Shown in pieces: positions 1 through 33,430 of a stretch of DNA of 64,000 nt; position 1 is the stretch's first letter, and each line of letters opens with the position of its first letter. A program made the translations under genes and the position numbers. The notes under the pieces are model-generated. The model was not told the origin of the DNA. It saw nothing but the letters and a program-made list of their open reading frames with translations, and ran no database searches. Origin of the DNA: Ceratodon purpureus (taxonomy: Eukaryota > Streptophyta > Bryopsida > Pseudoditrichales > Ditrichaceae); assembly GCA_014871385.1 (NCBI GenBank), contig CM026427.1, positions 926,068-990,067 of the forward strand, in the 5' to 3' direction.

Positions 1-547
1 CACGATACGATCGCAGGGTAGCAACTGCGAGGTCGTGCTCGGTCTTGAGCTCTTCGAGGTCTTTCCGAAATGTGTCAATGTCGCGCTCGGCTTCCAACAG
101 TTCCAATAGAACGGACCGTCCCAAGCCGTACCCAGCATGATTTCGGAGTTCGGATTCCGCGCGGGCTCGCTGGCATTTCAGTTGGAACAACTTCTCCTTC
201 AGCTCAAGCAGGTTGAGGCGCGTCTCTTCGCGTACCGCAGGGTCAGACGTTGTTGCATCAATCTGCGAAGTCTGAAGTGTGGCATCCTCGACCGACTTGG
301 CACAACGCAGATACCTGTTGTGAATGTCGCGCAACTCTCCTTCCACTTCCATGTAATCGTCCGCTGCAACCCCCTCTTCAGGCAACATGGGTACTTCGGC
401 GTGGAACTCCGCTGTAAGCATTCGCTCACGGACCTCGGCGAGTCCAAGTCTCCTGCCTGCATCGGACGACAGACGAAACTTGTGTGTTAGGATATCTGAA
501 ATTCGGGAAGGACGAGGAGAAGACGGACGGGCCACGGAACTCGGCAT
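1..547 (-). CDS. Coiled-coil protein, N-terminal part (runs off the left edge)
   Basis: The complement strand is open without a stop from an ATG at 547 to position 1 (182 codons, no end seen). The protein starts MPSSVARPSSPRPSRISDIL, a Ser/Pro/Arg-rich head. From about residue 55 it becomes highly charged and Leu/Glu/Lys-rich in heptad style (for example LLELKEKLFQLKCQRARAE near residues 115-133 and LLELLEAERDIDTFRKDLEE near 150-170), which predicts a long coiled coil. A TATATA lies about 95 bases upstream on this strand (646-641). I recognise no family. Its G+C and codon use match the transposase and methyltransferase genes beside it, and its MPSS start resembles that of the ParB-methyltransferase (MPSSTSR). 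I infer it belongs to the same mobile block. Its true length and any introns are outside the window. Confidence 0.7.
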   Translation of the reverse strand, partial: MPSSVARPSSPRPSRISDILTHKFRLSSDAGRRLGLAEVRERMLTAEFHAEVPMLPEEGVAADDYMEVEGELRDIHNRYLRCAKSVEDATLQTSQIDATTSDPAVREETRLNLLELKEKLFQLKCQRARAESELRNHAGYGLGRSVLLELLEAERDIDTFRKDLEELKTEHDLAVATLRSYR

Positions 548-1391
548 TTCTCTAAACTGTAGACTGGAATTTGCTAGTGTAGGAAATAGGCTTGAAACAA
601 GATTACGATAGATGGGCATATGACTAGTTAAGCAGCGAAATATATAGTACAGCCAGCGAGTTCCATAAACCGTCATTTAAGTCATCAGTGGCGCAAAGTT
701 AATATGGGTTTTGGCGGCCAAATTAGATAACCCATAACTTCTGAATGTCAGCTCATTCCAAACGGCGCCGGCGCCATATCCCATCCTGGTCACCTTATTT
801 TTATGGCTGGTTGCACTGCATATTTGAGAACCGGCCCTGGCGAAACCCGAGGATAACTTGATAGGACTTAGAATGGCTAATATGCGGGAGTTTAGGCAAG
901 GGAATTTACTGCACTGCCATCTGGAGCTCCATCCGCCACAGGGGTCTAAGGTAACTCAGTATAGGATCAGTCAATTGTTGAGAAGTTCTTTGACACCCTG
1001 ATTTTCAGAGAGATGACGGTTGTATTTTACTGTGATGCAATGAATTTTCGTTCTTTTGGAGAAGAAATATAATAAATAGGAATGAAGCAGAAAATGAAGG
1101 GGGGAGCAAAAGAGAAAATTGAATAAAATGATAGCAAAAACAAAAGAGAAATAAAGTAAAACTGAATGGCGCGAGCGCCATCTGATGCGTACGAAGTAAT
1201 TGCGCCACAAGCTGGCAAGTCGACCACAAAGATGTAATTCTTGTAAAGATTATTTATTAACAATCTCCAAGGGACAGCTAATATTCTATATCATGGTATC
1301 CAGAGTATATTAGAAAGTAAATCCAAACCACTTGGCGCCGGCGCCATCTTCCCTGATTCGAGAATTTAATTCACATTAATGTTCTAGAGTA
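548..1391. other. Intergenic, three palindromes, no gene seen
   Basis: This stretch lies between the coiled-coil gene and the 3' end of the transposase gene. It holds three copies of the region's palindrome (764-777, 1166-1181 and 1334-1347). The short AT-rich open frames at 971-1263 overlap in several frames and look non-coding. Confidence 0.6.
641..646 (-). promoter_or_regulatory. Possible TATA box of the coiled-coil gene
   Basis: TATATA on the complement strand, about 95 bases upstream of the ATG at 547. This is a single motif in moderately AT-rich DNA, so it is suggestive only. Confidence 0.35.
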
Positions 1392-4300
1392 CTACAATGC
1401 CGGCATCCATGCTTGGATGATGTCTTGAACGTCAGCTCTACTTAGTGTCGCTTGGTGGGGTCTGTCGTCATCCAAAGGTAGCCCAAGTACTTTGTGGTAA
1501 ACGTGATACATATGCTTGCACGTCTTGAAGAAGTGTCCTGCCTTATTCGCCGAAACACTGTTGACTAGAAACGCACAGGTGCATGAAGGCATTTCGCTTA
1601 TGGTGACAATATATTGCACCGGCTTGTTAGTGGTGGTCGATACGGTGGCTAACTGAAACGAGAAAGATGCAATCTCTGGGTTACTGTCAACAATTCGAAC
1701 TTGGGCACACATCCTTAAGCCTTCGTTCCTTCTACTGCAGCCTGAGTCGGTTAATGTTCGCCTATTGACACGCTTGCCAGCGCGCCAGATGGGTCTGCGA
1801 CTGGGATCCGCCGATGATTGGTTTGGTGATCGTATATTTTCGGAGTGCTCCCGGTCCAATGCACGACGCGCAATATCCTCGGTGAATCTGTTGACCAAAA
1901 CAAACCCTGCATCTGCGAGCGAGTTTGCCTCTAACATGCTTAACTTCGTCCCCATTTCAACCGGCCAAACATTCGGCAAAGGAGGCGGTCTACCACCCTG
2001 TAGATGAACAACGTGGTTGCTTGCGACGCATGCCTTCGATGAAGTAGGACAGAACCAATAAATCTGAAATGATTTGCTATATCCAATCTCAGAAGTGCCG
2101 TAAAAACTAGGTGCTGGGATACTTAGATCCGCTGACTCCTTGATGTATCGTGCGCATGACTCGTATCGTCCATTTTTGTAGATCACGCCAGCACACTTTG
2201 GGCTCTCTCCAGATATGCTTCTTCGGATGGCCCATTCCTTGCAATTGGTGTTGCGCTCAATAACCGGTATGCCAAACTGAATTACGTTATTTTGGAGTCC
2301 ATGGCTTGTTGGAGTGAACGCCTGCGGTCGGTCTGGCAACTGCGAATTTGGTGTGCCTTGAAAATTGTAAATTCGCTCGTCCGGTGTATGTAAGGGCGTG
2401 CCGTACTGTGTAGCTCGCCTCTGATGTGCAGCAGATGCAATTTCGGAAGTCGGTGCTACTCGAGCGAATTGAGCAGATAAATCCCGCCCCGAACCAAAAT
2501 GAGAGGCTATGGACGTCTTTGTCTGATATGAAAATTCTCGTCCATTGCAAGGTTGTCTAAGCGCTGACGACGGAGTCGAGAAATTTCGTGGTATTGGCCT
2601 GGTTAGTCGATTCTCGTCGCACTGGAACTGAGTAGACTGAAGAGTCTGTGTCCCCACGTAAGGGCACTGGCTTGTACTCTCGATGATGTTACTATTTGAC
2701 ATGGGTTGACCGAAGAAGTTGACACCAGGTCCACCAAGTACATGTGCATGCGGTATTGAATCAGGTAATGGCGCTGGCGCCATTCCATTGCCGGGCTGTC
2801 CTTGGTGCAGCCTGCCAGTGTTGTTGTACTGGATCGAATCAGGTAATGGCGTTGTCGCCATTCCATTGCTGGGGTCTCCTCGGTGCAGCCTGGCAGTGTT
2901 GTTATACTGGATCGAATGAGGTAATGGCGCTGGCGCCATTCCATTGCTGGGCTCTCCTCGGTGCAGCCTGGCAAGGTTGTTGTACTGGATCGAATCAGGT
3001 AATGGCGCTGGCGCCATTCCATTTTCGGGCTCTCCTCGGTGCAGCCTGGCACTGCTGTTGAACTGGATCGAATCATGTAATGGCGCTGGCGCCATTCCAT
3101 AGCCAGAGTCTCCGCGAATTACCCTGGCACTAATGTTCGTCCAATCAGGCTGTGGCGGGATGGTCGAAGCTTGTGCTTGAACGGGCAGTGAATTATTTGT
3201 CGGCAACTGCCGTCTTCGTTTGAATCCTTGTGTATCGCGCATTGATGGAGGCTGATCCTTCAAGGGCCGTCTAACGGTCCGGCTGTCCTTATCCGGTCTA
3301 TGAGATCTTGCAGATTTACGCTTTCCGATTCTCCCTGATAGTCGGACAGTTTGAGTGCGATCATTTTCGCCTTCCATACCGAGTCCTCTGGAGTGGAATT
3401 CAGTTCCTTGGACCGCTGCTTTAATTGCCATCGCAACCTTCTCCGGCTTATGGGACCTCGCCACATGCCTAAGCATTAGATCTGCTTTGGACGGGCCCGA
3501 TCCTCGTAGGAGGCCTTTCGAAGCTGCGAGACAAAATTGTTGCTGTAACAACGATCTTGTGATATCCTCAGCGCAGACAGTGTACAGGTCCATCTTGACT
3601 TTCAATCCGCTCGCAGATGTTGCCCACATCGAACTATGTACCGGTTCGCATAAGTTTGTTCGTGGGATTATTGCTTCGCTTTCAAGATCAAGGTCGAGCT
3701 CGTTCACGTGATGGTATGCAAAAAGGGTGCGCCTTGCCATCCACCATGACTTCCACGCGAGCATATGTCGAATATTGCTTTCCTCTACAGCACCCGAGGT
3801 TGTCCACCAGTCCTCTAGTTCTTGGGCTATTTGCCGAAATTCTTCATTAGTTGGCGCGTTTGCCCAACGCTTGCACATCTCTATATGGTGAATCCTAAAC
3901 TTGTCCGAAATCCACTTGTTAGTATGGTCACGAATACTCTGCACAAAATGGAAATAGCAGGTTCGCATGATAGTTTCTGGTTCATTCGATTCCGTAGTGG
4001 CGACTGGCACGGGCTCATCTGGATTTCCATCTAGGCCGTCTGTGACTCCATAGACATGGCGAACGGCGTTGTAATTAGCCGGTGCCGCATCCGCCATAAA
4101 TCCCCTGAATTTTGGCTTCGGCAGCCCAGCACGTCCTACGACTTCGTTAAGAAGTTCCCAAAACTTTATCTGGTTTTCCTTGTTCTCGAGCTTCATTTCA
4201 CACACAGCTATTGTTAGCAAGCGCTGTAAGTGATGATCATACACGTGTGCAGCCATCGTGGTCCACTGATGAACGCGCTTAATGTGGTCGAACATAACAA

Positions 4301-6017
4301 AGGCGTCCTTTAAATCTCCCGTAGTCATTCGCCGGACGAGCTCAACACCACTACCAATTCCGACCGTGGACATCTTGAATACGAACTGGATGCCATCGTA
4401 CGACTGGCCCGGGAAGTGACTATCCTGGATGTAGCTGTACCTCGAGTAGCGCTTCAATGCGAAGATGCACCTTTCCTGGTCCCCCCTAAACTTGGTCACT
4501 AAGTTCTTAACCCGAACCTTGTCATGGTATGGTGGGGCTCTCTCTAGCATGTCCATGAGATTTTCTTCGGTCAACAACTCTCTGTCATCTACTGTCGTGG
4601 TTTGCATGATCAACTCGAAGAAGTTCCTATGGGCGCATCGAAAACCAACCCACCCCGGGGCACCCATCAACCAGGGCTGGTCGTCTAGAAACCGCTGAAT
4701 CGTCTCCGACATATTAACATAGGCACCACGATTTCGACCCGGGGCAGATGCGTGGTTGTGTGTTCCTTGATGAACTATTGCGCGTGTATAAAATTCTGAT
4801 TCATGTGTCACCGTCCACAGTACGGCTCTACACTGCTTGATGCATTCTGGTGTCGACCTGCAAAACGAACATCGCCAATCCTTCTCGGCAGGACAGGATC
4901 CCAGAGCGGGTCGTGAGTTGCAACGACCTTCCCAATGTAGGGTATTGGGGCAATTGTGCAGTGTGATGTGATTGCAGTCTTCATTCCGGCACACAAAGCT
5001 CCCACCGCAGAAGGATTTTCGAACACGAAGGTTTGCATCCAAGAACTTTTGTGAGTTGTAACTGTTGGACTTTACCCAGGGATGTCCATCGAATGAGACG
5101 TCCGTTGCGATTGAGTCATCCCCCACCACTGGTGGCACCTCAAATATATGGTTATCATCATAAACCGTGGGCAAATACCTACACTTAGTATGTCGGAAAT
5201 CTGCAAGTGGGAGGCCGGCTAATTCCCCTGTACACCCCATGGTGGGCAATTGCAGTAGAATGGGATAAATCGACCATACACCTGGAAATGGTGACTCATC
5301 ATCTTCTGCCACAATTGCCCTAGGAATCCGAGGTGTATATGGGGTCTCAATCGTATCAGTATTATCACACATAGGCCCACTCTCCTCCATCAATGGTGCT
5401 TCACTGGTGTCAACATTCCGAGGAGTGGAACATGAGATTCTAGGATCATTTCCAGCATCCGTTTCCTCTGCTTGAAATGAAGACGCTGCATTGGAGTTGT
5501 CAAAGTCGTTTGAGAGATCATCCAGTCGCTGAACTGGGAAGTCCTCAAGCTCTAGCCCTCTCCGCCCTCTAACACTAGCTCTTCTCATAATCGGACTGAT
5601 TTGGTACTCTTGGCTCCCGCTGGACATGTCACTGCCACTGTCTTCGTCATTCGTTGTGGAATCCAGGAGAATGGTGCCCCGGTTATCCTGCGCATACAGT
5701 TCAACATTGGTCAAATCGGGCTGACTTGATGTAGACATCCGAACTGGTTCTCCATGTACAACGAATGTTGCTTCTTCCATTCTTGGCAACAAGAAGACAC
5801 TTCCAACTTCTCTCTCTTGCGGCCAGTAAATACAACCAATTGCACCATGGGAATCAATCCGCTTAATGTGAATTGTCCCCTTGGTCAACTGGAATGAGTT
5901 TGCTAAATCAACTTCTGTAATCTCGAGACTAGGACCTGCACAAGGATACGTGACCTTCACATCACTTCCAGCTAAAATCATGATGATTGGCACTGCTGTA
6001 GAACCCGACGAGGCCAT
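1392..6017 (-). CDS. Mutator-like (MULE) transposase with GCM-type zinc finger and SWIM finger, 1541 aa
   Basis: A single uninterrupted reading frame from ATG 6017 to a stop at 1392. Residues about 335-422 form a Cys/His cluster (CGGSFVCRNEDC ... CSFC ... GTHNH) of the WRKY-GCM1 zinc-finger class that accompanies many MULE transposases. Residues about 540-700 are a MULE-type DDE core: first Asp in VMFDHIKR, second in FMADAAPANYNAV, then the CYFHFVQ motif. A SWIM finger (CxC ... CKH, CTCAFL to KTCKHMYH) lies at about 1476-1506. Between them is a disordered stretch with basic clusters (KRKSARSHR, FKRRR; likely nuclear signals) and five 26-residue repeats at about 972-1102. Expected role: nuclear cut-and-paste transposase. 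An open frame of this length suggests recent activity or selection. It is divergent from the ParB-methyltransferase gene. I did not place the third acidic catalytic residue with certainty. Confidence 0.88.
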   Translation of the reverse strand: MASSGSTAVPIIMILAGSDVKVTYPCAGPSLEITEVDLANSFQLTKGTIHIKRIDSHGAIGCIYWPQEREVGSVFLLPRMEEATFVVHGEPVRMSTSSQPDLTNVELYAQDNRGTILLDSTTNDEDSGSDMSSGSQEYQISPIMRRASVRGRRGLELEDFPVQRLDDLSNDFDNSNAASSFQAEETDAGNDPRISCSTPRNVDTSEAPLMEESGPMCDNTDTIETPYTPRIPRAIVAEDDESPFPGVWSIYPILLQLPTMGCTGELAGLPLADFRHTKCRYLPTVYDDNHIFEVPPVVGDDSIATDVSFDGHPWVKSNSYNSQKFLDANLRVRKSFCGGSFVCRNEDCNHITLHNCPNTLHWEGRCNSRPALGSCPAEKDWRCSFCRSTPECIKQCRAVLWTVTHESEFYTRAIVHQGTHNHASAPGRNRGAYVNMSETIQRFLDDQPWLMGAPGWVGFRCAHRNFFELIMQTTTVDDRELLTEENLMDMLERAPPYHDKVRVKNLVTKFRGDQERCIFALKRYSRYSYIQDSHFPGQSYDGIQFVFKMSTVGIGSGVELVRRMTTGDLKDAFVMFDHIKRVHQWTTMAAHVYDHHLQRLLTIAVCEMKLENKENQIKFWELLNEVVGRAGLPKPKFRGFMADAAPANYNAVRHVYGVTDGLDGNPDEPVPVATTESNEPETIMRTCYFHFVQSIRDHTNKWISDKFRIHHIEMCKRWANAPTNEEFRQIAQELEDWWTTSGAVEESNIRHMLAWKSWWMARRTLFAYHHVNELDLDLESEAIIPRTNLCEPVHSSMWATSASGLKVKMDLYTVCAEDITRSLLQQQFCLAASKGLLRGSGPSKADLMLRHVARSHKPEKVAMAIKAAVQGTEFHSRGLGMEGENDRTQTVRLSGRIGKRKSARSHRPDKDSRTVRRPLKDQPPSMRDTQGFKRRRQLPTNNSLPVQAQASTIPPQPDWTNISARVIRGDSGYGMAPAPLHDSIQFNSSARLHRGEPENGMAPAPLPDSIQYNNLARLHRGEPSNGMAPAPLPHSIQYNNTARLHRGDPSNGMATTPLPDSIQYNNTGRLHQGQPGNGMAPAPLPDSIPHAHVLGGPGVNFFGQPMSNSNIIESTSQCPYVGTQTLQSTQFQCDENRLTRPIPRNFSTPSSALRQPCNGREFSYQTKTSIASHFGSGRDLSAQFARVAPTSEIASAAHQRRATQYGTPLHTPDERIYNFQGTPNSQLPDRPQAFTPTSHGLQNNVIQFGIPVIERNTNCKEWAIRRSISGESPKCAGVIYKNGRYESCARYIKESADLSIPAPSFYGTSEIGYSKSFQIYWFCPTSSKACVASNHVVHLQGGRPPPLPNVWPVEMGTKLSMLEANSLADAGFVLVNRFTEDIARRALDREHSENIRSPNQSSADPSRRPIWRAGKRVNRRTLTDSGCSRRNEGLRMCAQVRIVDSNPEIASFSFQLATVSTTTNKPVQYIVTISEMPSCTCAFLVNSVSANKAGHFFKTCKHMYHVYHKVLGLPLDDDRPHQATLSRADVQDIIQAWMPAL
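2760..3149 (-). repeat. 78-bp tandem repeat inside the transposase frame (five copies)
   Basis: The palindrome recurs at 2768, 2846, 2924, 3002 and 3080, exactly 78 bases apart, as the centre of a tandem repeat encoding 26 residues of the pattern NGMAPAPLPDSIQYNN-ARLHRG. The second copy has a degraded palindrome (GGCGTTGTCGCC). All copies keep the reading frame. The DNA palindrome encodes MAPAPL, so the same 16-mer exists as protein-coding sequence here and as non-coding sequence elsewhere in the block. Confidence 0.92.
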
Positions 6018-6492
6018 GATGAAAAGAGAATTCTGAAGCTACTGTATGGTACCGAAAGCACTTGGTGGACTGAAGACGTGGACTGTGTACATTTTATACA
6101 CTTCCAATGTGTCGGTTATGCAGCCGCATGAATTGGCACGAATAAAAATTTGTTCAACGAACCACAACGGGCCGGAATTTAATCAACGGGCACTTCCAGC
6201 CGGCGATCTTGTTAGTCGGATGCATCGCCGTGGGCACAATCTATGGGAACATGACGTTGAATAAGGATCACCAGCTTTTAATATCATACCAACGGGTCTT
6301 TGACTCGTTGGGTATACTTGATGGCCGATGCGTATAAAAAGAACCTGCTGGCCATGATACTTATCCATCCATTAGCAATCACGTAGTTGCCACCGTGTGG
6401 GCCAAGGAAGATTAGGTTTCTTGGAAAGACAGCTCGCACTCCGCGGCATCTGGCGGATAGCATGTAATTTTGCCTCCCTCAAGTATCCCACC
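6018..6492. promoter_or_regulatory. Shared bidirectional promoter of transposase and ParB-methyltransferase genes
   Basis: 475 bases between the two divergent start codons (6017 on minus, 6493 on plus). On the complement strand, TATAAAAT at 6098-6091 is about 75 bases before the transposase ATG. On the plus strand, TATAAAAA at 6333-6340 is about 150 bases before the methyltransferase ATG. No copy of the block's palindrome lies in this interval. Head-to-head placement would co-express the two proteins. Confidence 0.5.
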
Positions 6493-9400
6493 ATGCCTTC
6501 AAGCACTAGCAGAGTTAGCCGTCGGAGTGGAACGCTGACGCTCGATACCATATTTGGTGCTCCTTCGTCGCATTCGTGTGGGATGGAGGTAGTTGGGTCG
6601 GTGCGGCATCGGGGCGATGGAAGCGAGGACACCCTCTCGCTTAAAAAGCGCAAGACTGCTGAGCGCCCGAGTGATCGGGATGTGAGTTTCCGCACCCTCT
6701 TTTTGTGGGTTTGTGATGTAATACTCCATCTCAGTCTACTTGTCGAGTATGTTGCCCAGGATTGCTAGGTTCGCTTGTTGTCACCATTCATGTCCATGTT
6801 GCATGCGTTGCGCTCTTATTGCTTGCCGATCCGCTGTACAGACTAGCTAGCAAGGACCGGCTTTTAACTTCTTTGATCGTATTCGAGTGCGGATGTACAT
6901 AGAATTAGGTCTTTGCCTTCGTTTATGTATGAATCTTTTGGACACAATGTTGTCTGCGCAATCTTTACCCAAGTCGAAACAATGACTTCGAAGTCTGAGG
7001 CATGGCGCCGGCGCCATGCCCTTCAGATTATGTACTTTAATCTCTCGAGTACTCGAACTGCTAGATACTGATTATTGTGTCATCCGGTTCGGAGATTGTG
7101 CGAGGTGATGCCTGGTATATGGATGATGCGTCTATGGGTTCTGGCTGCGATTTTAAGCCATTGATCTCCTACGTGAGATGGGGATCTATCTTCGCATGTT
7201 TTCAAATAAGCCTTAGTGTGGTTGACATTTTAATGGTTTTCTGTTACTTGAGCCCACAGTGAGTATACGTAACAGCGTTCTTGCGCCGGCGCCATCAATG
7301 GCGAATGCGGGCGTATGTGTCCAATTATATCTACCGCATCTTGTTAAAATGATTTAGCGGCATAGATTTTTCACTATGTGTCACGAGCCATAGGAAGCTC
7401 TGATATGGCATCGGCTGATTCATTTGAAAGGTTTGGTTTTGGCCATGATTGACAACGTTTGAAATGTTTGGTGTAGGCCATGTTTGGTGTAGGCCAATAT
7501 TCCGAGGAAGACATCGATACCAGTGGCGAAGCCGAACCGGAACCTACGCTACCTGCCTTCACGAGCGTAATTGAACGAAAAGTGGATCCGAATCCTTCCG
7601 TGACCTCGTTTGAGCAGTTTCAGGAGTCGTTGTTCAGTCAGCTGAACATTCACAAGCACTTGGAAACCCAGAAACTGAAACCTTTTCAGCTTGAAATTCC
7701 CTTGTGCAGGCTATTGCCGACGAGATGGGTACGGCAAACTCTAGAGGCGGACGTTCAGACTGTCTATGATGGATTTCACATTGGTAACTGGGGTACGAAC
7801 TTCTGGGTTACTTGTTCAGGTAACCCAGCCGCGTATCCATTAGCAAGCTTCAGCGACAAAGGCCGATGGGCACATGTATCAGATGAGTTCGATACCGAAC
7901 TTCGAAGACTTTGCATTGCCGATCCTGGTCGCAAAGACATTTACGAGAAGATTATAGGGCATTACGTTCATGTGTGGGATGGAAATCACAGAGCCATTGC
8001 GTGGATGCGTCACATTGCGGAGAACAACGGGGATCCTATTAAAGTCAATTGTTTTGTTCTAAATGACGCCGAGTCGGACCGCGGGTGGATTTCAAATTTT
8101 ATGCGAGATATAAATGAGTATGTTCTTCATAGAACCCATCTACCTGCCTTATCATGTGTCGTTTAGTCTCGCTTAATATTATCATGATATCATATATCGT
8201 TTCCACTTAATTGATTTTGGATCGTAATTCAGTGGTTGTGTATTCTGCAGCGGCACTGCCAATTCGTCAGTTAAGAAGCAATTAGCGCATACTCTTTTTG
8301 AGGTTCAACAGATAGCCCAGAGAGATCCCTCGGATTACCGGCTCTACTTTACACAACCTGAGATTGACCGTATCAAGGAGGTTTGTAAAGGCCGATGGTA
8401 TAAAATGACTTGCGATGCTGTGAGCGAGGTATATTTCAAGGTATGTAATGAAATCCTGACTCGTATCTATCATTTTCTCTGTATTGCTTTCTTGAGGGAA
8501 CTTAAAATCTGCCGTTGATGTTCGTCTCGCAGAAAGAAATATCCCTCGCAGAGCGGGATGCAGTGAACGCATTGAAAGAGAGGATGCGGAATCCAACCGC
8601 CGCTGCTATCGAGAAAGCGAAAGTCACAGGGGCTGAGAAGGTCCGAAAGTCAAACACGGATTACATGAAGAAGATTTTCCGGCTATGCAACCCCAAGTAT
8701 CACCCCCACCTCACCGAAGAACTCGACAAACAAGTAAGAGGGCCGAAAAGGAAGACGGGCAACATGACGGTTGATAATCTTGGGATTCTCATTGGAGCTC
8801 AAGGCGTTGATATTAAGAGGGTGTTGAAATTATGGAACAGTAGTGCCGCTGAGAAGGACAGGTACAAGTTTCCCGATAAGGAGTTCACTCGAGCGGCCTT
8901 CCAGAAATGGCTTAATCGAAGAGCCTGGTGGGAGCAGGTATTACGTCATCGATAGACTGATTCATGTGGAGTCTAATAATGTTGCAATCTGAGTTCAGAG
9001 TCTAACTGCACTGGTTTCGTTGAGTGAGTTAAATTGTGAGCATTGGTGGATGTAATCGTCCGCTTTTTTCTAGGTCCTCATTGGTTTGATTTTTGCGTAG
9101 AACTTTATTCCTTAACCGTTCTCATCTTAAATGTCTTGCTAATTTACTTAAATGACAAATCATCGCAGATGCGTACAAGAGCCGGGGAAGTGTTTGGCGA
9201 GCTCGTGGGAAAATCTAGAGCCGACAAAGGAATTGGAGTCCTCCTGAAGTGCGATACTTCGGAGCTCATGGACAAATATTTTGACTCCGTTCTTGTGTTC
9301 GGATTTGACAAATTCTTTCCCGAAATATTTCTGGATGAGGGTGGGCCACTTCGGCACAAGTGTTGGCGAGAGCAACCTACATACACTGACGGGGAGAAGG

Positions 9401-12121
9401 TCGTCCGTAGGTTTGTGATGCGATTTGTCCGATGGCTTTGCGAGGTTCCAAGAGTGCTTCCGAATGAGCCAGGTGGTCTAGATACTTTTCCAGTTTTCGA
9501 AGACTGGATTCGTCAAGCCGAGAAGGGTACCTTCAGCAGGCTGCAGCATGATAGCTTTGCTCCAGCGCACCTCAGGTCTCTTGGTTGGTACATTGAGAGC
9601 GAGCCCGGCGATACGGAATATTTTGATGCCAGGGACAAGGAAATTTACGACAACGCGGAACTTGAGATTCAAAGAGTAAGAGAAGCACCACTTTCGGAGA
9701 AGTACGCGGTCTTAGAGGAAACGCTGGAGGTAATAAAGGAAGGCCTGGCAGCATCGGATAGCGACGGAGTGACCCCGGTTGGCATGGTAGATCGTTATCC
9801 ACCTAGTCTATCGTATGTAATGATTTGTGCCTTGTCGGGTAAAACTAATATTGAACTGTACGTTCCTCTCACTAACCCGGGCATTATCACTGAATACGGT
9901 CCAATCATGTTATATGAGCTGCAGGAACTCATAAATATTTCGAAAGACCTTGATACAATGCACCAAGATGATTTGGGTGTGGCCGTTGCGGATGTCGTTC
10001 GGAGCGTGGAGGCCATGGCCGAACTAGAGCAGGAGGCCGAATGTGTCATAACGGCGTCGACTCCCTCCAGTTCTCAACCTGCCGCCCCTGATCTCATTGC
10101 AGGGCATTATTTACGGCCGCGTGTGGACAAACCTACTCCAGATGAGCCTGTATCCTCTGCGCCTTCACAGAAAAAGCTAGTATCGAAACCGATGAAGAAA
10201 CCAACGAAGCTCAATCCAGATGATACCCCTGTTGTGAAATTCAAGGCCCTTCAAATTGATGGTGCGGAGAAGTCATTGCGGCGTTCTATGAATCTCTCTA
10301 TCGAGGGCTTCTATTTGGGAATTCGCCGTTCCGTTTTTCAGAAGTTCATGGGTTGCATACGAGAGGCAAGATTCCTTCATTCATTCTTTGACACTTCTCA
10401 TCTTTGCTCTTTTGTTTCGATCATTAGATTATTTCCATGATAGGTGTTTTTTTAATGCAATCAATGGTAGCTAGTACCAGTATGTTTAAATTGCCGTCGG
10501 CTGCTCATTCAATGTTATGCGCCTTCAGCACTTCGATCATAGGCCGCAAGTAGCGATTGCAGAAGCAGAGCTTCGGTCACCTCCTACAGTTCCGTGTCGT
10601 TTCTATCGTAGAGTCTCGATTACATAGTCATATGGTCACCTATTGTTTTACTTGAAGTTGTGAAACTTGATCTTGTCTATCTTCTAACAAGCTCGGGCAA
10701 GAAATCGTGATGAAATGAATCCAATGTACGACTATCTTTTAGCTGAATCGGCGCCGGCGCCATGAGCTGAGAATCTTTATAAGGAATCTGATATCACATA
10801 TTTTTTATATCGATTTTTTGTATTGTAACTTTGGTGCATTCGGCGCCGGCGCCATTTGCATGATCTTGCTTTATGCTGTGACAGTCTTTGAAATATGATT
10901 TTACAATGGGGCTAGCTACATCTAGATTCTCAGTATGATATTCTTAGTCCAACCGTCGCGGAGGTTTGAGGATAATCTGGCATTTGGACATGTCGCTTTG
11001 TATACGTGTTAATTCTTCTGCAGCCTCTTCGATTATGATAGCTAGTGTCGTTAGCATTGGCTAGCGCGGTTTACATTTTTGCAGATAGTATTCCCGTCGT
11101 TAATCTTATTGGATGATTAATTTTCTATTGTTGTTTGGCCTGCACAGATAAATGGCGGAAGGCTTCGGCAACATCACAGGGTCGCAAGCCCAAATTGTGT
11201 GGATCTCATTATTTGTGATACCCCCGACAACAGCAAAGTTCCAGACGTTACGTCTCCAACTCAGGTTCCAACGTGGAATATGGTTAAAAAGACGACATTT
11301 GACGCAATTTTCCATATTGCGGACTCAGTTCTTGCAGATTCAGGATTTTTGCTTCTATTTGTGCCCGCGGAGGAGCAGCCACAGCTTATGGCCGGACCAT
11401 GGGCAATGGAATGGGAATGTTTTCGGACTTTCTATGTTGTTAACCACCGACCATTTGATCCAGTGTGGGTAAGTTCTTCTATGTTGTGAATTGTAATCGT
11501 CGTTCTGGGTCTATATTGGTTATAGACGTCTAACCTGTCGATGTCTTATAATCTTTGCAGAAAAAGCTTTTTAAGGCCAAAGTGTTTAGGCGAAAGTGTA
11601 TGAGCCACGAAACTTTCAAGTTCAACGAGATTGCAAGCAAAGTCATGGACTGGCATCCAGAGGAATCAGATGTTGTGCAGAATGTTGTCACCGATTCAAA
11701 CCTTTTGCGCTGCAAGGAGACCTTTTCCTATCGTGGTTCAAAACAAAAATCTCCAGCATTCATGGAGTCAATGATCGAAATCTGTACCGTGAAGGGAAGC
11801 GCTGTTATAGATCTGACCGCTGGTGTTGGTAAGTCCTCAACAATGAGGTCTTTATTTTGTCCATTTTGTAATTTGCCACTCTGACTTAACCCTTGTTCGT
11901 TACTCGCAGGATCCTCTGTCGATGCTTGCGAGGTCAGTGGGCGTCATATTCTCGCGCTTGAGGACGATGTTGCAGCCTTCAGTGTTTTTCTGAAAGATAT
12001 TGCAGTTAAAATGGACGGTGTGGACGAATTGGCGGAGGATCCTGTCCTTAGCCTGCATCAGCACCTGGCAGAGCTCGAGCGTAGTGGATCACTGGCGACG
12101 GCAGCGTACTCCGGGTCCTAA
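6493..12121 (+). CDS. ParB-like domain - DNA N6/N4-methyltransferase-like fusion protein (eight exons, about 1134 aa)
   Basis: Proposed exons: 6493-6678, 7477-8117, 8251-8440, 8533-8937, 9169-10351, 11149-11468, 11561-11828 and 11910-12121. Phases agree at every junction and the sum is divisible by three. Exon 1 carries a KKRK nuclear-type signal. Exon 2 carries a ParB/Srx-like fold ending in VHVWDGNHRAIAW (the family's DGxHR motif). A long helical and acidic middle part of unknown type follows (exons 3-5). Exons 6-8 resemble PF01555 N6_N4_Mtase: motif IV position VDLIICDTPDNS, then late in the protein SPAFMESMIEICTVKG and the S-adenosylmethionine loop IDLTAGVGSS, then GRHILALE. The order IV-before-I and the ParB-first architecture match bacterial and phage ParB-methylases. 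The usual DPPY is DTPD here, so activity is doubtful. The exon 5 donor (weak) and the first intron (798 bases, could hide an exon) are the least certain parts. Expected nuclear; role inferred to serve the transposon. Confidence 0.72.
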
Positions 12122-12350
12122 ATCAGATCGGGTAGATTAGCGTACGATCTGTTGAATTTCTAAAGTACTTTCTCAGAAATAGTAACCATATCATCCTCTG
12201 GCATAAGATTGAGTAGACTAGTAATAGTGGTGATCTTATATATTCTGTCTTTTCGACAATAATCGAGTTCTATAACTCGATTTGCAATACATGAATAGAG
12301 TTTGAAATCCTCTTGCACTAGCGTTCCTGATACGACTATTTGATCAAAGT
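12122..12350. other. Convergent 3' spacer
   Basis: 229 bases between the stops of the methyltransferase gene (plus) and the small basic gene (minus). AT-rich 3'-UTR-like sequence; nothing else recognised. Confidence 0.5.
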
Positions 12351-12880
12351 CTAGTCTGAGCTTTCCGTGTCACTGGCCAAGTCCACCAAATAGTTAGATA
12401 TGGTTTCCATTACCATCGAAGATTCTAATTGCTCATCACACTCACCTTCCTCTTTCGGAATGCTACCTCCCGATACCACAAATACAGGGAATTCCCATGT
12501 CGGCATTTCCCGGATTATCGGCAATGTCATTCCGTCAGCCGTGTCTAAACTCACTATCCCTAGTCCGAAATCGACGGGCCTTATTGTGTCCGCATGGATT
12601 AGACATCCGAATTCTGCACACGCAATAATTTCGATGAAATGACTACATTGGCACTTGCGGAACTCTCAAAAGCAGGAGGAACATCGCACTCACCAGCACA
12701 GCCGCTTAATCTCTCTTGGCCAATCCTCTCCTTCCCTGAACCGACTTTGATTCCACGAGGACGGGATCGCCGCTTGAATGACCTCTTCGCTCTTTGCCTT
12801 TTTACTGCCATTGCAGCGTCCTCAGCACAGACGCTGCGAGGTAGACAATGGACTTGGTTTAGGTTAATATAGTTCTCCAT
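12351..12880 (-). CDS. Small basic/acidic two-exon protein, unknown family
   Basis: Two open stretches on the complement strand join cleanly. Exon 1 is 12880-12694 and ends at a strong donor (GTGAGT). The intron is 80 bases and ends in TGTGCAG. Exon 2 is 12613-12351, with phase kept (G|AA gives Glu). The product is about 149 residues. An N-terminal half has a very basic run (KRQRAKRSFKRRSRPRGIK, likely nuclear or nucleic-acid binding). A hydrophobic, structured-looking middle follows (VDFGLGIVSLDTADGM, TWEFPVFVVSGG), and the tail is acidic (DLASDTESSD). I recognise no family; the VDFGLG string is not in a kinase context. It is convergent with the methyltransferase gene and shares the block's composition. 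The model rests on splice signals and frame only. Confidence 0.5.
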
Positions 12881-13342
12881 CGGAATTTCAAATTCAAAAA
12901 CTGGCTGAGGTTAGTAAATGCCGTGGATTCAGTTATTCACACGTTTGAAGCGCCACCCAGAGATTGAGGTTGAATGCTGCATGGAAGCGCCATTTCATGT
13001 TTCGGCTCAGTTAAATCAGGATTCTTTCTCAATCAAGATTTACTGGTAATTAACGCTGAATGTAAATCCCAGTGTGGAGGTTATGGTGAAGTATAATCTT
13101 CAGATATCGCCATTGCTGGTACATCGTTTTCGATAAACACACCATGTTATATATATATATTTTGCCTAAAAATCAGTATATGAGTATTTTGTTCCTTTAG
13201 CATTGAATTTGTGGTTTACACATCACGGTTTATAAATGTCTAGCCAGGACTATGTTTACGTATTCCCATCTTTTTCTTACTTGTTGTTCTAGTTTTGCAG
13301 TAATCAATTACGCAACTGATCGTGTTGTTTTGGATCGCTGCG
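12881..13342. other. Intergenic, no gene seen
   Basis: Spacer between divergent small genes. It contains a (TA)n tract near 13148-13160 and, at 13271-13300, a pyrimidine-rich acceptor-like stretch ending TTTTGCAG just before the next gene. That acceptor does not join the next frame, because an in-frame stop follows it. Confidence 0.45.
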
Positions 13343-13972
13343 ATGACGAGAATCAGGCGGGGTGCTCATCGAACTGGAAAGGATCGAGATACTTCGGTAT
13401 CAACAGTACCAATCACTCCGGAGGTGCAGTCAATGCTGACCGGGTACGCGATGCGATGGTCCGATTTTGGTGGAGGAGCTCAAATTGTTGCGGACGTTTC
13501 GGAGAGCAGTGACTCTGATTTTCAACCGAACGAGGATTCCATCACTTCGAATCCTATCTTGTCCAGCCGCTGGTTCAAGTCTTTGTCTTCTGGCCGTTTG
13601 TTCAAGTTGTTAACAGTGGTTTTACCTCACCTGGATCCTTACCCTGAGGATTGTTTTACTTGGCAATCTCTCGTGAATGGGTTTGCTGTTGATTCCTTCC
13701 CATATCATCGACACTGTGTCCTGATTAAGGGTGGAAGTGTGGGGCCCGTCTCTGATCGAGTTTCCCTGTTCTTGAATCGCAAGTTGGACTCACTGTCTCC
13801 CGGGCAAGTGCTTATCACAAAGCAGGTCAAGGGTCGGATGGGTATGCAGGTGCTTCATTTCTGGCAGATTGACCAGGGCGGGTTGAACTGGATCCATCGT
13901 GGGACAGGTCGATACCGTATTGTTGATTCAAAGTCGTGGGAGGAGATTGAAATCCAACCGACGCATACTTAG
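13343..13972 (+). CDS. Unrecognised 209-aa protein of the mobile block
   Basis: Open frame from ATG 13343 (MTRIRRGAHRTGKDRD) to the stop at 13970-13972. It has a basic N-terminus, an acidic Ser/Asp patch (VSESSDSDFQPNEDS, about residues 52-66), and a folded-looking C-terminal two thirds rich in hydrophobic beta-type stretches and aromatics (CFTWQSLVNGFAVDSFPYHR, VLHFWQIDQGGLNWIHRG). No signal peptide or membrane segment. I recognise no family. A shifted frame over 13301-13512 is also open for 70 codons, so the 5' end could be wrong or spliced. Its position and composition tie it to the transposase/methyltransferase block. Confidence 0.5.
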   Translation: MTRIRRGAHRTGKDRDTSVSTVPITPEVQSMLTGYAMRWSDFGGGAQIVADVSESSDSDFQPNEDSITSNPILSSRWFKSLSSGRLFKLLTVVLPHLDPYPEDCFTWQSLVNGFAVDSFPYHRHCVLIKGGSVGPVSDRVSLFLNRKLDSLSPGQVLITKQVKGRMGMQVLHFWQIDQGGLNWIHRGTGRYRIVDSKSWEEIEIQPTHT

Positions 13973-15337
13973 TCGGATCACCCAATCCTATCAACACTTT
14001 GTGAGCACAGGAAGTGATAATTGGCACTGTGGTCGGAGCACTGGACGAGATAATTGGCACTGTAGTTTGATAGGTTAATCTGCCGACAAGTTTGTAGTGC
14101 TTGGGGCCGTTTTTGTGGTGGATTGCTTCGAACTACTTGAGATACCTTTTATGGATGTATCCGGTTTATTAAGCAAAGGTGGTCAGTCCATGTATTGTCC
14201 CCATTTCGCAATAGTACCGGGCCGGAAATGCTTGTTGCTCTCTGGATTTTGTATCTGCTTGAAGTACTTGGCATATGGCGCTGGCGCCAACTCCATATCT
14301 TTATATCGGGATCCCTCTGTTTGGATGTGTGTCTGATTTCGTGACTGAGTCTGGGAATGTGGTGCGTTCCAGATCACATGTGTTTATGACTTGGATCAGA
14401 CATCATACTTAACATTTATTTGGGTTGTACCGTTGCATTGGTTCTCAGCACTTGGCGCCGGCGCCATGTCTGGACTTCAATCTTTTGGGTTTCTACAGTT
14501 AAACGTTTACTTGCCATTACTGTTGAATGGTTCTGGGAACTCGCATTGACAGAGTTTCTTCCACCGGCACTGTATATTTTGTACATATTTTTCGGTTTTT
14601 GGTAGTTCAGCTTCCCGATTTAGAAATGCAAGCTAGGATTTTTATTTGTGCTATAACACAATAATAATTGGTTTTTTTTTAAGTTTTCATTAATTGCATG
14701 GTTCTACGTAATCATTAGTAGTGGTCTTGATCGCCTTGCGGCGCCACTGGTTTCCGGAGAAAGTGCTTGAACGGGGTCCTTCCGTATTTAACGTTGTTCA
14801 TTAGTGCATCGTCAACTGTGTTTGAAACTGAGTTAAAAGCGGAGCACTTATATTAAAAGTTCTGAGTTAGTTTGACGATCTTCTAGATTTGCATCTACTT
14901 AGATTGCTAGAGTTGGTTGTATATCTGCATCCTATAACTGCGGATGGCGCTGGCGCCATTAGGTAAGCAATATTCATTTCACCCCTTATACTTTATATTG
15001 ATGAGTCAGTTTCTTATTTTATTCGTTTTTCTGAGAGTTGGGTTTCTCGTAGTATGTACGTATGTTGTATGATATACACTACTAGTACTCGTACGATGAT
15101 AAGTGTTCTGTATGAGGAGAGGATCTGTTCATCAGTCGTATGGATTTTTGGTTGGACGAATGATACGGAGGATGTAGTATTTGGAGTTTGTACCGAGTGT
15201 ATTTTTCGTCGTCGCAGACTTTCATCTATAATTCGGTATCTCGTTTGGGGGAGATGGATTCCTGAATTGTTGAATGAATGTCGGTTTTGATCACAATCTG
15301 ACCTGGTCCTTTCGACTGACGCCGTCTTTTTTGACAG
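13973..15337. other. Intergenic with three palindromes, no supported gene
   Basis: Three copies of the block palindrome (14275-14289, 14454-14467, 14944-14959) and one half copy near 14740. Short open frames here show no conserved features. A/T content rises toward the right. Confidence 0.45.
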
Positions 15338-15434
15338 GCCTACGCGCACGGCGAAGGACGCACTGCGGGAATACTACCTCGTGCAGGACCAGCTGCTGAG
15401 ACTAGGTGCACCTATAATTAGGATTAGCAAGTAG
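15338..15434 (+). CDS. Possible orphan terminal exon
   Basis: A pyrimidine tract (GTCTTTTTTGACAG) is followed by 97 GC-rich bases open in one frame, ending in TAG at 15432-15434. The peptide is RPTRTAKDALREYYLVQDQ followed by LLRLGAPIIRISK. It sits exactly at the change from GC-rich block to AT-rich DNA. It could be the last exon of a gene in the block, or the tail of a host gene cut off by the insertion. No upstream exon was identified. Splice signal and composition are the only support. Confidence 0.3.
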
Positions 15435-16724
15435 CAACATGGAAGAAGTTCAAATAAAGAAGACTCCTTGGTTTTTGATACAATTGCACATGGTTTTGAT
15501 AACCTTTGTAACTCCATTACATCAATTCTAGTTTTTAGGTTTCTAGAAAATCAAAAAAAAATCAATATAACTTCAAACAAATTTGATGTATTTTTTAATC
15601 CGCATTCTCTACAATTGTCTAACTTACTTGTATTTTTTTGCATCAACTATGCCATTTAACAACAAGGCAAAATTAAGTGGCGGCTTCTCATGCTACTACC
15701 TCAAGCCATATGAGTGAAAGGTCAAATGTTAAAAATCACATTATGCTACATAAAAGGTAGCATTAAGTCTATATTGGATTGGTAATGTGTTGAACAAGCA
15801 ATTCTCTGTTTTCTTAATTCTAAAGGACAACGTAACGACGCTATCTTATGAGCGGTGAGCGATGAGCAAAGAAAATTGACTTTTCGGAAAAAAAATCTTT
15901 ATTTTTTTCTTCAAAAGTCAATATTTTTACTGAATTTTTACACTAAGAAGGTATGTAGGAACACTTTCTTAGAGTATGTGACTATAAAAAAAATGGGCCC
16001 TATAACCGTGGATACAAAGGAACAAAAATATTGAGTTAAAAACATAAATTTTTATTTCAAATTTTGGAGGCCCCGGAATATGTAGAATCAATGTTCTAGA
16101 TATTGGTTTTTTCTTTTACCTTTTTGGTGCTATTGGATCTGAGAAAAGAATCTTATGTAAACCCAAAAGAATATTTAGGTATATTGTGGTACTTTTGTAA
16201 AAGACAAACATCATCTAATACCAAAATCTGAAATAAACATGGTTTTAGAAAAAAAATGATCTTTATTCATATTCCGTGAATTCAAATTTTAAACAAGTGC
16301 AAATCAAATCAAATCCTCTTTAGAAGGAATATTTTCCCAAACCACATAGATCATTGAAAATGCCCTCCATTATGTGGAAACTGTTGAAGTGGTTCCGCAA
16401 CTTTAGCAAGTTCTAAAACTCACATAACCTCGTTGTAGATGAAGTTGAAGGCGTGCATGGAAATATCTACTTAGTAATTTATCTTACAAATATATTGAGA
16501 GATGTATTACATGTGTTTGCGCTACGTCTATTGACCATTTTTTTCTAGGGGTCTCTAATGTCATCTTAGAATATTGGGGCGGATACATCTTGATATATTA
16601 TTAACGGTAACACAATATATTGTTCCATTTCCACTATTTATAGAAATAACACATCCATTTAGACAATGATTTGTACATGGGGTATTTGTAAGTGAGACAC
16701 ATGAAGGAAAAATAAGAATCAAGT
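15435..16724. other. AT-rich, no gene seen
   Basis: Low-complexity A/T-rich DNA. It contains the left member (from 15840) of an inverted pair matched at 22994-23013. Confidence 0.5.
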
Positions 16725-17660
16725 TTAACCCCTAAAGGACCAGGAAAGCGAAAACTACTTTTTGTTGTTTCGGGCAGCCTAGATGAAGAGGTTAAAAGTA
16801 ATATTTTTGGCTAATTTTTTTACTGGATGCTTCCTTTACCGCAATGTGTACGTGGTAAAATTTTCAAAGTCAAATTCCAATTTTAGACCCTTCATCTAGA
16901 AATTTTAGGTTTCAAGTCCAAAACGGGCAGTTTAAAATTAGATTTTTTTTCATTTTTTTTTTATAAATATGTTCATGACCATATCACTACTCAAAATCCA
17001 AAGTGACCCAAGTCAAAAAGTTTACCAATTTTACAAGGGCAGCCTCCAAAAATTACATGAACAAGCTTCGAAGTTTTTTGAAATTTTACAGTTTTTCCTT
17101 TCAAAAATTGTCAAAATTTGAGATATAGGAAATTTTCAATTTTTTTTCTTCTTGAAATTCACAAACTCATAGATGTAACTTTTAACCGTTCAGATTTTCA
17201 AAAAACCAAAAACATTTGATGTTATTCAAGTTTTACCATATTGTGGTTTTTGAACCTTCCTCTAGAAAATAATATGCATGAAGGCCAAAAAATCAAAATG
17301 AGTCTCCAAAATTTTGCACGGAAGTGCCCAACTTAGTTACCTACATGGAAAAAAATATGAGCAAAATGTTTGGGGTAACAATCATCAAGTCTCCCTTGGC
17401 ACCATTTAGACTATGCCTTTACAACAATGCCAAAAAAAAAAAACAGTAAACTTTGATTGTTATAATCTCAAAAATGGTCAAGATCCAACGGTTGAAATTC
17501 AACATGGTGTAAGTGAAGATAGTTAGGTTGAAGATCTTACGGTTGGAAATACCAGAAAAGCAGATTCTATTGGAAACATACATCAATTTCCATAAGGTGG
17601 TGAAAATCTGCAGTTTTCGGTTTTGGAGGTGCCAGAACACCTTGGACCTTTAGGGGTTAA
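16725..17660. mobile_element. TTAA-flanked element, copy 1 (936 bp)
   Basis: Left end TTAACCCCTAAAGGACCAGG; the complement of the right end reads TTAACCCCTAAAGGTCCAAGG. Bases beyond TTAA do not match between the sides, so the duplicated target is TTAA (or TA within it). Terminal CCCC and TTAA targets are reminiscent of piggyBac-type or TA-targeting miniature elements. No coding capacity. The interior is AT-rich. Confidence 0.72.
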
Positions 17661-18337
17661 TAGTGCTAAGGGGTTTTAGATCATGTAGAAGTAGAGGTAG
17701 GGTATGAAGGCAAAGTACTCATTTTGCAAATCTCAAGGAGGTTAAAGCTTAGAAGAGACAAAGGAAAAAAATCTCTTATTTGCACAATGGAGGTTGATTG
17801 TAGCTTAGATGACACTAGAAAATCTCAAAATCAACAAATTAGTGGCCATTTGTCAGGTATTTAAAACGGAGTCTTTTTTATTATTTGTCATTATGACATC
17901 ATTACATGTGCATGGGCATCTTTACAAAAAATCAAATTGACCCTATTGCTCAACACTGGACCTATAAAGTGAAGCATGTCCAACAATTAGGTTGTTGGAC
18001 TTTGACTAACTCAAAGGTCTAGTCAATGATGATAACTTGTAGTCTAGCATTCTTAAGTGGAGTAATGGCAAAAACAAGAAGTGGTTTCATCTCAATCATG
18101 ATGCGTTCATTAACTTCCTATATAACATGAAGCCCATGAAGAAGCAATGTGAACATATGAAGACACTTCAGAAACGGCCACATGAGGGGATAGAATAGGG
18201 TGCCCGTAAAAACTAGTTGTCATTGCTTCTAAGAATGTTGAGGCTACAAAGACCTACCTCTCAACTGACCCAACCTAGTACCTTGCAATTACAAATCCAA
18301 CATATAGTAAAGACTTCTAAAAGTGCTAAATTCTACA
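17661..18337. other. AT-rich, no gene seen
   Basis: DNA between the two TTAA-flanked elements. No frame, repeat or RNA gene could be supported. Confidence 0.4.
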
Positions 18338-19153
18338 TTAACCCCTAAAGGACGAAACAACCACTTTTGGGTTGTGCCAGAAATTGAAAACCCAATAAAA
18401 TGCCCCAAAAGGGTCGGATTTGAGTGTTTTTTGTTCCTAACCTCTTTAGAATCAAGTTGGCAATAAGGGTACGCTAAAATTTTAGTGAAAAAGTGAAACC
18501 CTGATTTTAGAAAAAAGAAACAACATGGGTCGGTGACGTGTTTCTATAGTGAAGTTAGTGTTTCTACAGTGAAAATGTTTCAACTGTACTTTGAGCACAT
18601 TGTGCACTGAAATAAAGATCTCTGCTTGTGGATTTTTTTTTTAGCATTTTTTTGTGGAATGTTTGTATGACCACTACTTTATGGCTTCACCGTTTCGGAT
18701 TTATCAGATTCCCTTTTGAATTTGCCAAAAAGAGCCATATTGAAGAAAATAAAATTCAGAGTGACACTTATGTCAAACCCATTTTCTCCAAATTGGTAAC
18801 TTGGAAAAATCTAAAAAAAATTGTGCATGTTCCCAACATACTGGAAAAGAGACTTAGCTTTAGTTGCCAAGTTTTTGTAAATTTTTGAAGTAGTAATTTT
18901 TAGTCAAACTTGGAAACTCACTATTAGTATTTCAGAAATTCACTAATCTTCCAAACTTCACATGTTATCTTCCAATATGTTGCTTCTCCTAACCCAAAAT
19001 TTGGTACAGCTTTTGGTACTCCACTACTTTCAAAGATCTTACAGTTAAATTGCTTATGGTGATTCTTAAATTTGTCTCACTTTGGAAGATGCAAGAATGG
19101 CAGTGTAGGTGCTGAAAAACTGTGGAAATACCCCTCCGTCCTTTAGGGGTTAA
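18338..19153. mobile_element. TTAA-flanked element, copy 2 (816 bp)
   Basis: Left end TTAACCCCTAAAGGACGAAAC; the complement of the right end reads TTAACCCCTAAAGGACGGAGG. Same terminal 15-16 bases as the copy at 16725-17660, with the interior largely different. Again TTAA is the only shared flank. Non-coding. Confidence 0.72.
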
Positions 19154-19394
19154 ACTTTCTTCAACATCAATTCATATTTATTTTCATTTTTAAGATAAAT
19201 AAGTTAAGCTAAGGGCTCTCTCTGAACGAAGAAGGGATTAAAAGAGATTATACTATGAATTTCCTTACAATTGTTGAAGTCCACTAACAACTTGCCATGC
19301 ACTACTACATCATAGATTATACTTCCACATTGACACAAATCCTCACACCCCTCTCATTGGTAATTTTATTTTCTATTTTTATAGTGCATTGTAT

Positions 19395-19856
19395 GAGCTT
19401 GAGGCTCAGCTGGAACCAAAGAGGGATGTAGACAAGCAATTTTTGAATTTATTGTTTTAGTTCTTGCAGCAAATTGGTTGTAGATAGCACTCAACTAAGT
19501 CACCGTTTCACTTTTTTTTTTGAACTTTCGTTCACGCAGGCCTATTATTCATCATATAATGGTGATTTTTCATGGTGGTTGTGATGTGCTTGACCCCCTC
19601 TCGGATCCAATATGGGGTAGAGAGGGGTCAAGGTTTCCCATGTTTGCAGAGTTTCAGCAACATGGAGACAGCTGCCTCCGCCCTACAAAGTCAAAGTTTG
19701 TAATCTTTTTTTGATTTTTTGAGGTGAATAAGATGTCCTTGAGGCTCTATTGGATTTAAAGAGGGATGAGGATAAGCTATTTTTGTATTTATTGTTTTAT
19801 TTCTTGCAACAAATTGGCTGTAGGCAACACTCAACTAGTCACTGTTTCACCTTGTT
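19395..19856 (+). repeat. Diverged direct repeat of about 120 bp
   Basis: The segment at about 19395-19515 recurs at about 19736-19856. Shared core words include AAAGAGGGATG, TTTATTGTTTTA and CAAATTGG, and CACTCAACTA. In one frame both encode related peptides (LEPKRDVDKQFLN... and LDLKRDEDKLFLY...), but the first has stops. This suggests a duplicated exon of the decayed gene to the right. Confidence 0.55.
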
Positions 19857-33400: not shown

Positions 33401-33430
33401 AAAAAAAAAAAAATCCCGAATCTTAAAATC

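Follow-up and report, generated by a model that had tools for sequence, protein, structure and literature searches.

Introduction

Large DNA transposons of algae are known to carry an accessory gene in which a ParB-like part is joined to a DNA methyltransferase. In the brown alga Ectocarpus, the element Sola1-1_Ec32 has such a gene, for which self-modification has been proposed, and green and red algal transposons with similar proteins have also been reported (Iyer 2011 and Petroll 2025, as cited in PMC12477816). The present work concerns a gene of this kind in a land plant, the moss Ceratodon purpureus. It lies at 6493-12121 on the plus strand of a 64,000-nucleotide stretch of contig CM026427.1, referred to as the window, in which coordinates are given; C1, C2 and so on are contigs of the same genome. 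The gene encodes a protein with a ParB-like and a methylase part (ParB-methylase) and stands head-to-head with a transposase-like open reading frame (ORF) at 1392..6017 on the minus strand, a single open frame of 1541 amino acids (aa) from its first ATG. Additionally, an array of short palindromes specific to its clade is spread over the element.

As in Sola1-1_Ec32, two domains, ParB-like and methylase, are united in a protein of about 1100 aa (1104 there, 1140 here) that is encoded opposite the transposase in a large DNA transposon (PMC12477816), the ParB fold and the element ends of the moss copy being putative. The two differ in that the moss is a land plant, the Sola1 assignment of its transposase is unproven, and methylase motif IV reads DTPD in the window subfamily; they are compared by description, not by sequence. 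Clade-specific palindrome arrays are present here, whereas none is mentioned for Sola1-1_Ec32 in the available part of its description (PMC12477816). Genes of this kind have been published before, in algal transposons (PMC12477816), and are therefore not new as a kind; an earlier note on this DNA is not supported in its proposal of an undescribed system.

Dense target motifs are known from other plant transposons. The protein VANC21 of Arabidopsis binds YAGTATTAY motifs that are dense in VANDAL21, and its targets form tandem repeats (PMC5735166). The moss element resembles this system in its transposon-encoded accessory protein, its dense, element-specific short motif and its tandem-repeat targets varying between related elements; however, VANC induces loss of DNA methylation and its motif is non-palindromic and mainly non-coding, whereas the motifs here are palindromes, some of them in a coding repeat (PMC5735166). 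An element-specific motif array, as in VANC-like systems, is found in both clades described below. To our knowledge, VANC is unrelated to ParB-methylases, and no palindrome arrays are known to us for bacterial or phage ParB-methylases. The parABS partition systems combine a ParB-like protein with a cluster of palindromes of about 14-16 bp. A ParB-like protein with a palindrome cluster is also present here, but no ParA was seen, the element is chromosomal, a methylase is fused, and there is no evidence of partition. Bacterial and phage ParB-methylases such as Bce_0392 likewise join a ParB-like part to an amino-methyltransferase, but they are prokaryotic and the ParB activity reported for this type is nonspecific nicking (PMC5512222).

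The transposon ParB-methylase architecture is therefore known already, and what appears new here is the dense, clade-specific palindrome arrays; by title or abstract opening, no report of palindrome arrays in such elements was found in the open-licence literature. For the algal proteins self-modification has only been proposed, and the arrays are a candidate for the missing cis partner, supplying for either clade a specific target sequence that is open to falsification. If the reading proposed below is true, plants have transposons that put a base modification of bacterial type on their own chromatin. This would give a direct handle on the escape of mobile DNA from silencing and on the reported plant signals of N4-methylcytosine (4mC) and N6-methyladenine (6mA).

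Palindrome arrays of two clades

The arrays are dense and clade-specific: palindrome A, ATGGCGCYGGCGCCAT, occurs in the window clade and palindrome B, GTTCKGYRCMGAAC, in the type-B clade, each being absent from the scanned loci of the other clade but for one site. Some of the sites are arranged in tandem. With up to one mismatch, ATGGCGCYGGCGCCAT has 10 sites between -2000 and 15400, a span of 17.4 kb. None was found in the window's remaining 48.6 kb and the first 8 kb of the flanking stretch L009, in 11 other loci scanned (C5a, C1c and nine type-B loci), or in 200 shuffles. As expected, the fetched ends of a sister copy on C2 hold such sites too. Palindrome A in the form ATGGCGCCGGCGCCAT, with up to three mismatches, was found at 15 places in L009 and the whole window, all between 762 and 14944. 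Six of these are intergenic (762, 1166 and 1332, spanning 762..1347; 14275, 14452 and 14944, spanning 14275..14959) and four intronic, namely 7002, a perfect ATGGCGCCGGCGCCAT, and 7280 in intron 1 (7002..7295), and 10748 and 10840 in intron 5 (10748..10855). The other five (2768, 2846, 2924, 3002 and 3080) lie in a 78-bp tandem repeat of 4.4 copies within the transposase-like ORF (2758..3104). Genome-wide, exact ATGGCGCCGGCGCCAT occurs 214 times versus 0 for the reversed control. On C1-C3, the contigs with complete ATGGCGCCGGCGCCAT site lists, an exact palindrome A lies within 25 kb of all seven listed gene loci, and 22 of the 46 sites have a listed gene or transposase no more than 30 kb away.

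The type-B clade is represented by nine loci (C8a, C12a, C3a, C3b, C1a, C1b, C9a, C6a and C10a). Eight were fetched at 20 kb, and in each a diverged ParB-methylase gene shows the two parts in the order of the window gene; the ninth (L028) covers 10 kb of the after-gene part only and was assigned on the basis of DNA similarity and a match to PF01555. Type-B loci are also repeated, since three pairs (C12a/C3a, C1a/C3b and C1b/C9a) share DNA over most of 20 kb between chromosomes. Several of them have two ORFs beside the gene, one of RING/coiled-coil type and one for a small membrane protein.

With up to one mismatch, GTTCKGYRCMGAAC is found at 14 sites in C8a, 12 in C12a, 12 in C3a, 25 in C3b, 26 in C1a, 20 in C1b, 21 in C9a, 18 in C6a and 8 in C10a. 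The window element holds a single such site. The remainder of the window, the first 8 kb of L009, C1c and C5a have none, and when five type-B loci were shuffled 200 times each, no shuffle held more than one site. Exact GTTCKGYRCMGAAC occurs 984 times in the genome versus 11 for the control. The first 50 exact sites listed are all on C1, in four clusters spanning 19-21 kb (the last perhaps longer), and 47 of them are no more than 25 kb away from one of three gene loci, namely those that the PF01555 search places in that range, C1c excepted; two of the three are fetched type-B loci and the third was not fetched. In C8a, no GTTCKGYRCMGAAC site lies inside the neighbouring ORFs at 4.7-8 kb, which presumably belong to an exportin gene.

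From 11,994 on, C5a carries a third palindrome, GTCGGCNNNNNGCCGAC, with 11 sites at up to one mismatch and 0 at any other scanned locus. For the narrower form GTCGGCKGNCMGCCGAC, the genome contains 2,484 exact sites versus 0 for the control. As the own array of the C5a ParB-methylase it was rejected, and it is not counted as support, because all 11 sites fall outside the block shared with C1c (6,423-11,705) and the palindrome is of high copy number. This array is probably part of a neighbouring element of higher copy number that has a ParB-like ORF of its own. The stretch C5a 11994-20000 (L029/L030) is a possible third family, with two NIF-like phosphatase ORFs (Pfam PF03031) and a ParB-like ORF with GGQHTFEA beside the array; the ParB profile found no match in the GGQHTFEA ORF. 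The position of the GTCGGCKGNCMGCCGAC array near another ParB-like ORF suggests that the pairing of a ParB-like protein with an array of palindromes may be a more widespread principle in the organisation of large transposons of this moss.

Domains of the encoded protein

The C-terminal half is predicted to be a prokaryote-type, beta-class N6/N4 DNA methylase domain, as the earlier note had supposed, and profile comparisons support this. A profile of the family finds DpnA (E 6e-8) and CcrM (E 6e-5) in the PDB, and PHROG DNA methyltransferases match both P0001, an annotated C. purpureus paralogue (E 6e-6), and the C8 copy (E 9e-10). In the alignment, motif IV precedes motif I, which is the order of beta-class amino-methyltransferases. 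With PF01555, the domain proposed for the gene, the window protein (18.3 bits, E 0.0024) and P0001 (24.1 bits) remain below the 26.7-bit cut-off, while in the genome search at least 32 other places, all above it, were found among the best 150 of 772 candidates, the window gene not being one of them. Among phages, a tblastn search gave 81 records, and the 20 matches listed cover the methylase region only (best E 2e-4); of 39 pattern matches in viral contigs, none was confirmed. The direct phage or prokaryotic origin proposed earlier is putative. Moreover, an enzyme for N4 cytosine methylation is known from Marchantia, and the view that plants have no such DNA methylases is doubtful.

The usual catalytic motif IV is [DNS]PP[YFW], that is, DPPY-like. 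This pattern occurs in neither the window copy, P0001 nor four type-B copies in the alignment: the window copy and P0001 have DTPD, the type-B copies DQPF, DQPY or DTPF, and the frames of C1c and C5a DVPE. The activity of the window enzyme is uncertain, since DTPD has no usual aromatic residue. The methylase domain of the window subfamily might accordingly be catalytically dead, the protein serving as a DNA-bound scaffold or reader, a role compatible with site recognition. That PF01555 matches the window copy at the end with the S-adenosylmethionine (SAM) motif only points the same way as DTPD. Nevertheless, motif I and GRHxxxxE are retained in the window copy, as are the D and P that are invariant in motif IV; DQPF or DQPY is present in other clades, and the C-terminal methylase exons of type-B genes are under purifying selection, so that loss of catalysis is considered possible and rather doubtful.

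For selection, the ratio of nonsynonymous to synonymous substitution rates (dN/dS) was computed on stop-to-stop frames, which include some intron codons. It is 0.12 for the ParB part in both C12a/C1b and C1c/C5a, 0.25 (C12a/C3a) and 0.27 (C1b/C9a) for the methylase C-terminus, and 0 for C1a/C3b, with 3 synonymous changes. By these values, both parts are under purifying selection.

The N-terminal half looks like ParB/Srx, as judged from its motif, weak PHROG matches and the published analogue. Its 16 aligned members share an invariant P-C-R box (IPLCR-like), and 15 have the core VWDGNHR..AW, the remaining one lacking most of it. The ParB domain expected from the earlier note was not recovered by PF02195 or the NCBIfam ParB profiles (0 matches in family proteins) or by a PDB profile search with this part (0 matches); PHROG 1033, 'ParB-like partition protein', matches 6 of the 16 members weakly (best E 0.057). 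Matches of exon 2 to the Pfam/NCBIfam 'TehB' models (E 0.01-0.02) and of 6 of the 16 members to an unnamed PHROG (E 0.0036) were set aside.

Proposed function of the arrays

The favoured reading, for which the chances appear about even, is that the ParB-methylase is directed to the palindromes of its own element and marks the element DNA. The element encodes a transposase-like protein and, head-to-head with it, a ParB-like/beta-class methylase protein, which the palindromes would bring to the DNA that encodes it. There it may spread or cluster, as ParB does at parS, and its methylase part would place 4mC or 6mA; in the window subfamily it is perhaps a non-catalytic SAM-fold module acting at the element. 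The likely benefit would be discrimination between self and host, with host silencing kept off or element DNA marked for the transposase. Such a protein would act in the manner of VANC in the VANDAL elements of Arabidopsis, although it is a different protein, of prokaryote type. More tentatively, and at somewhat less than an even chance, the system may be one of parS-like self-recognition, in which the ParB-methylase and element-wide cognate palindromes co-evolve in each clade and a mark other than 5-methylcytosine (4mC or 6mA) escapes or replaces host silencing.

The ParB-methylase is regarded as the recogniser because its gene is seen in both palindrome clades. A shared protein architecture combined with differing array sequences is the pattern that a protein-DNA recognition pair would leave under divergent evolution. 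The main rival is that the palindromes are internal or subterminal binding sites of the transposase, and that the ParB-methylase acts elsewhere or without sequence specificity, for example as a nicking or methylating helper of transposition. Many cut-and-paste transposases do bind repeated motifs. Furthermore, an exact palindrome A lies within 20 kb of all six listed transposase loci on C1-C3, one of which has no listed ParB-methylase, and the tandem repeats with sites sit inside the transposase ORF. The nonspecific nicking by the ParB domain of a bacterial ParB-methylase (PMC5512222) is in keeping with this rival as well. Against it, the sites extend across the element, introns included, and not just near the ends. 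The type-B loci, moreover, combine palindromes and a ParB-methylase, while in the fetched 20 kb no sequence homologous to the window transposase was detected, although about 3 kb of two fetched type-B arrays on C1 extend beyond the fetched part, where another transposase is possible; this combination also favours direction by the ParB-methylase. Binding by the transposase is therefore rated as unlikely.

Several observations weigh against direction of the ParB-methylase to its own palindromes. Binding, methylation and expression are putative, the ParB fold of the N-terminal part was not recovered by Pfam, NCBIfam or PDB profiles, and DTPD (window, P0001) and DVPE (C1c/C5a) make catalysis uncertain. 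As the bacterial ParB domain nicks nonspecifically (PMC5512222), specificity may require some other part of the protein. The association of sites and genes is also incomplete. C1c has a ParB-methylase gene without an array in the A, B and GTCGGCNNNNNGCCGAC scans, C12a and C3a have one-mismatch sites only and no exact GTTCKGYRCMGAAC, and 3 of the 50 listed GTTCKGYRCMGAAC sites have no listed gene nearby. On C1-C3, 24 of the 46 palindrome-A sites are more than 30 kb from any listed gene or transposase. Genome-wide, no transposase is listed within 20 kb of 14 of the 34 gene loci. Finally, dN/dS reaches 0.46 for the C1c/C5a methylase exon, and five further pairs are synonymously saturated.

Gene model

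The gene is real, beyond chance, and the earlier observation of one spliced, phase-consistent gene is confirmed. Its eight exons join in phase to 1140 aa and a stop, with 0 internal stops; six donors are GT and one is GC (GCAAGA after 10365, a GC-AG intron), and all seven acceptors are AG. Exon 1 (6493..6681) begins with the ATG at 6493 and is outside the alignment to P0001. The ParB-like region is in exon 2 (7477..8117), with DGNHRA at 7978-7995. Exon 3 (8251..8440) and exon 4 (8533..8937), the latter a conserved middle region, fall within the P0001 alignment, and exon 5 (9169..10365), followed by the GC donor, holds middle region and linker. Exon 6 (11148..11468) contains the motif IV region, with VDLIICDTPD at 11199-11228 and CDTPD at 11214-11228. 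The SAM motif I, IDLTAGVG, starts in exon 7 (11561..11828) and is split over the junction, its remaining SS being in exon 8 (11910..12121) together with GRHILALE (11939-11962) and the stop. All motifs named earlier were thus located.

P0001 (M758_11G066700, 1084 aa) aligns to 93% of the window gene at 57% identity and matches four loci of this genome at 97-98% across exon 5. Its alignment is unbroken over six of the seven exon junctions (2/3 to 7/8), junction 1/2 being outside it; by this continuity, the ParB-like and methylase exons form one gene as far as another gene model shows. That the ParB-like and methylase exons are separate genes joined by a prediction artefact is very improbable in view of P0001, the in-phase junctions and the same ParB-like then methylase order in all 10 relatives with both sides fetched (eight type-B loci, C1c and C5a).

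The transposon and its transposase-like ORF

The gene belongs to a mobile element, as an accessory gene of a large DNA transposon. The lower bounds, set by scoring the best candidates only, are at least 30 genome loci for the transposase and at least 34 for the ParB-methylase. The partnership with a transposase suggested earlier proved to be repeatedly conserved: a ParB-methylase is within 20 kb at 20 of the 30 listed transposase loci, in 19 cases head-to-head, the matched pieces being 1.5-7.4 kb apart, and in one (C12) at a distance of 16.6 kb in another arrangement; the other 10 have no listed ParB-methylase within that distance. Transposase identity among paired loci reaches down to 52%. 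In both C1c and C5a, a ParB-methylase is accompanied by a transposase relative at 25-43% identity, in the divergent arrangement of the window in C5a and on the same strand in C1c. An ordinary host gene that happens to adjoin a transposon, as its host-like splicing might suggest, is hardly credible given the 34 or more loci, the near-identical sister copy on another contig and the conserved pairing.

No Pfam model matches the transposase-like ORF at E 10, and its label thus rests on what we take to be DDE- and SWIM-like motifs, its repetition and its pairing. No MULE model was matched at E 1 by two C5a pieces, and no relatives of the transposase were found among 5200 database candidates. MULE elements are marked by terminal inverted repeats and target duplications of 8-11 bp; between the candidate ends here (right end about 15380, left end not located), no clear inverted repeat was seen.

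The sister copy on C2 is 98-99% identical to the window element and has one TAG in its transposase frame. The stretch 1..15380 shared with it is taken as the element; homology ends at about 15380 on the right and on the left continues for 2005 bases or more beyond the start of the window, where the shared part includes a RING-like ORF with weak Pfam scores. A 16.2-kb insertion (G000:C2:8539832-8556040) interrupts the sister copy, and the flanking alignments, of which one flank was fetched, overlap by about 10 bases, like a target duplication. The insertion is itself another large element, with short GAGAGCG repeats at its start. A further transposase copy, reported as 100% identical, lies at G000:C7:786127-790074, about 140 kb left of the window transposase; it matches from residue 224 on only and has no listed ParB-methylase within 20 kb.

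Additional observations

Between C1c and C5a (L026/L027 and L029/L030), the synonymous rate dS is 0.62 for the ParB exon and 0.05 for the methylase exon, a contrast that, judged from these sequences, is due to recombination or gene conversion. Upstream of type-B ParB-methylase genes lies a small ORF that is conserved and whose product has a single hydrophobic stretch and an acidic end (L013:8196-8714, L020:1556-1918, L023:7895-8248 and L018:229-672).

Two database searches with the gene returned only Ceratodon records and unattributed contigs among the best 8000 candidates each. Fifteen exon-like proteins (P0002-P0010 and P0012-P0017), 62-100% identical, come mostly from short contigs of two sources (ena and lgn), which are perhaps moss DNA in environmental samples.

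Elsewhere in the window, a dispersed repeat of about 0.94 kb (16722-17662) has at least 41 other places at 74-99% identity, and GC-rich tandem repeats with units of 12, 90, 32 and 277 bases occupy 32883-33950.

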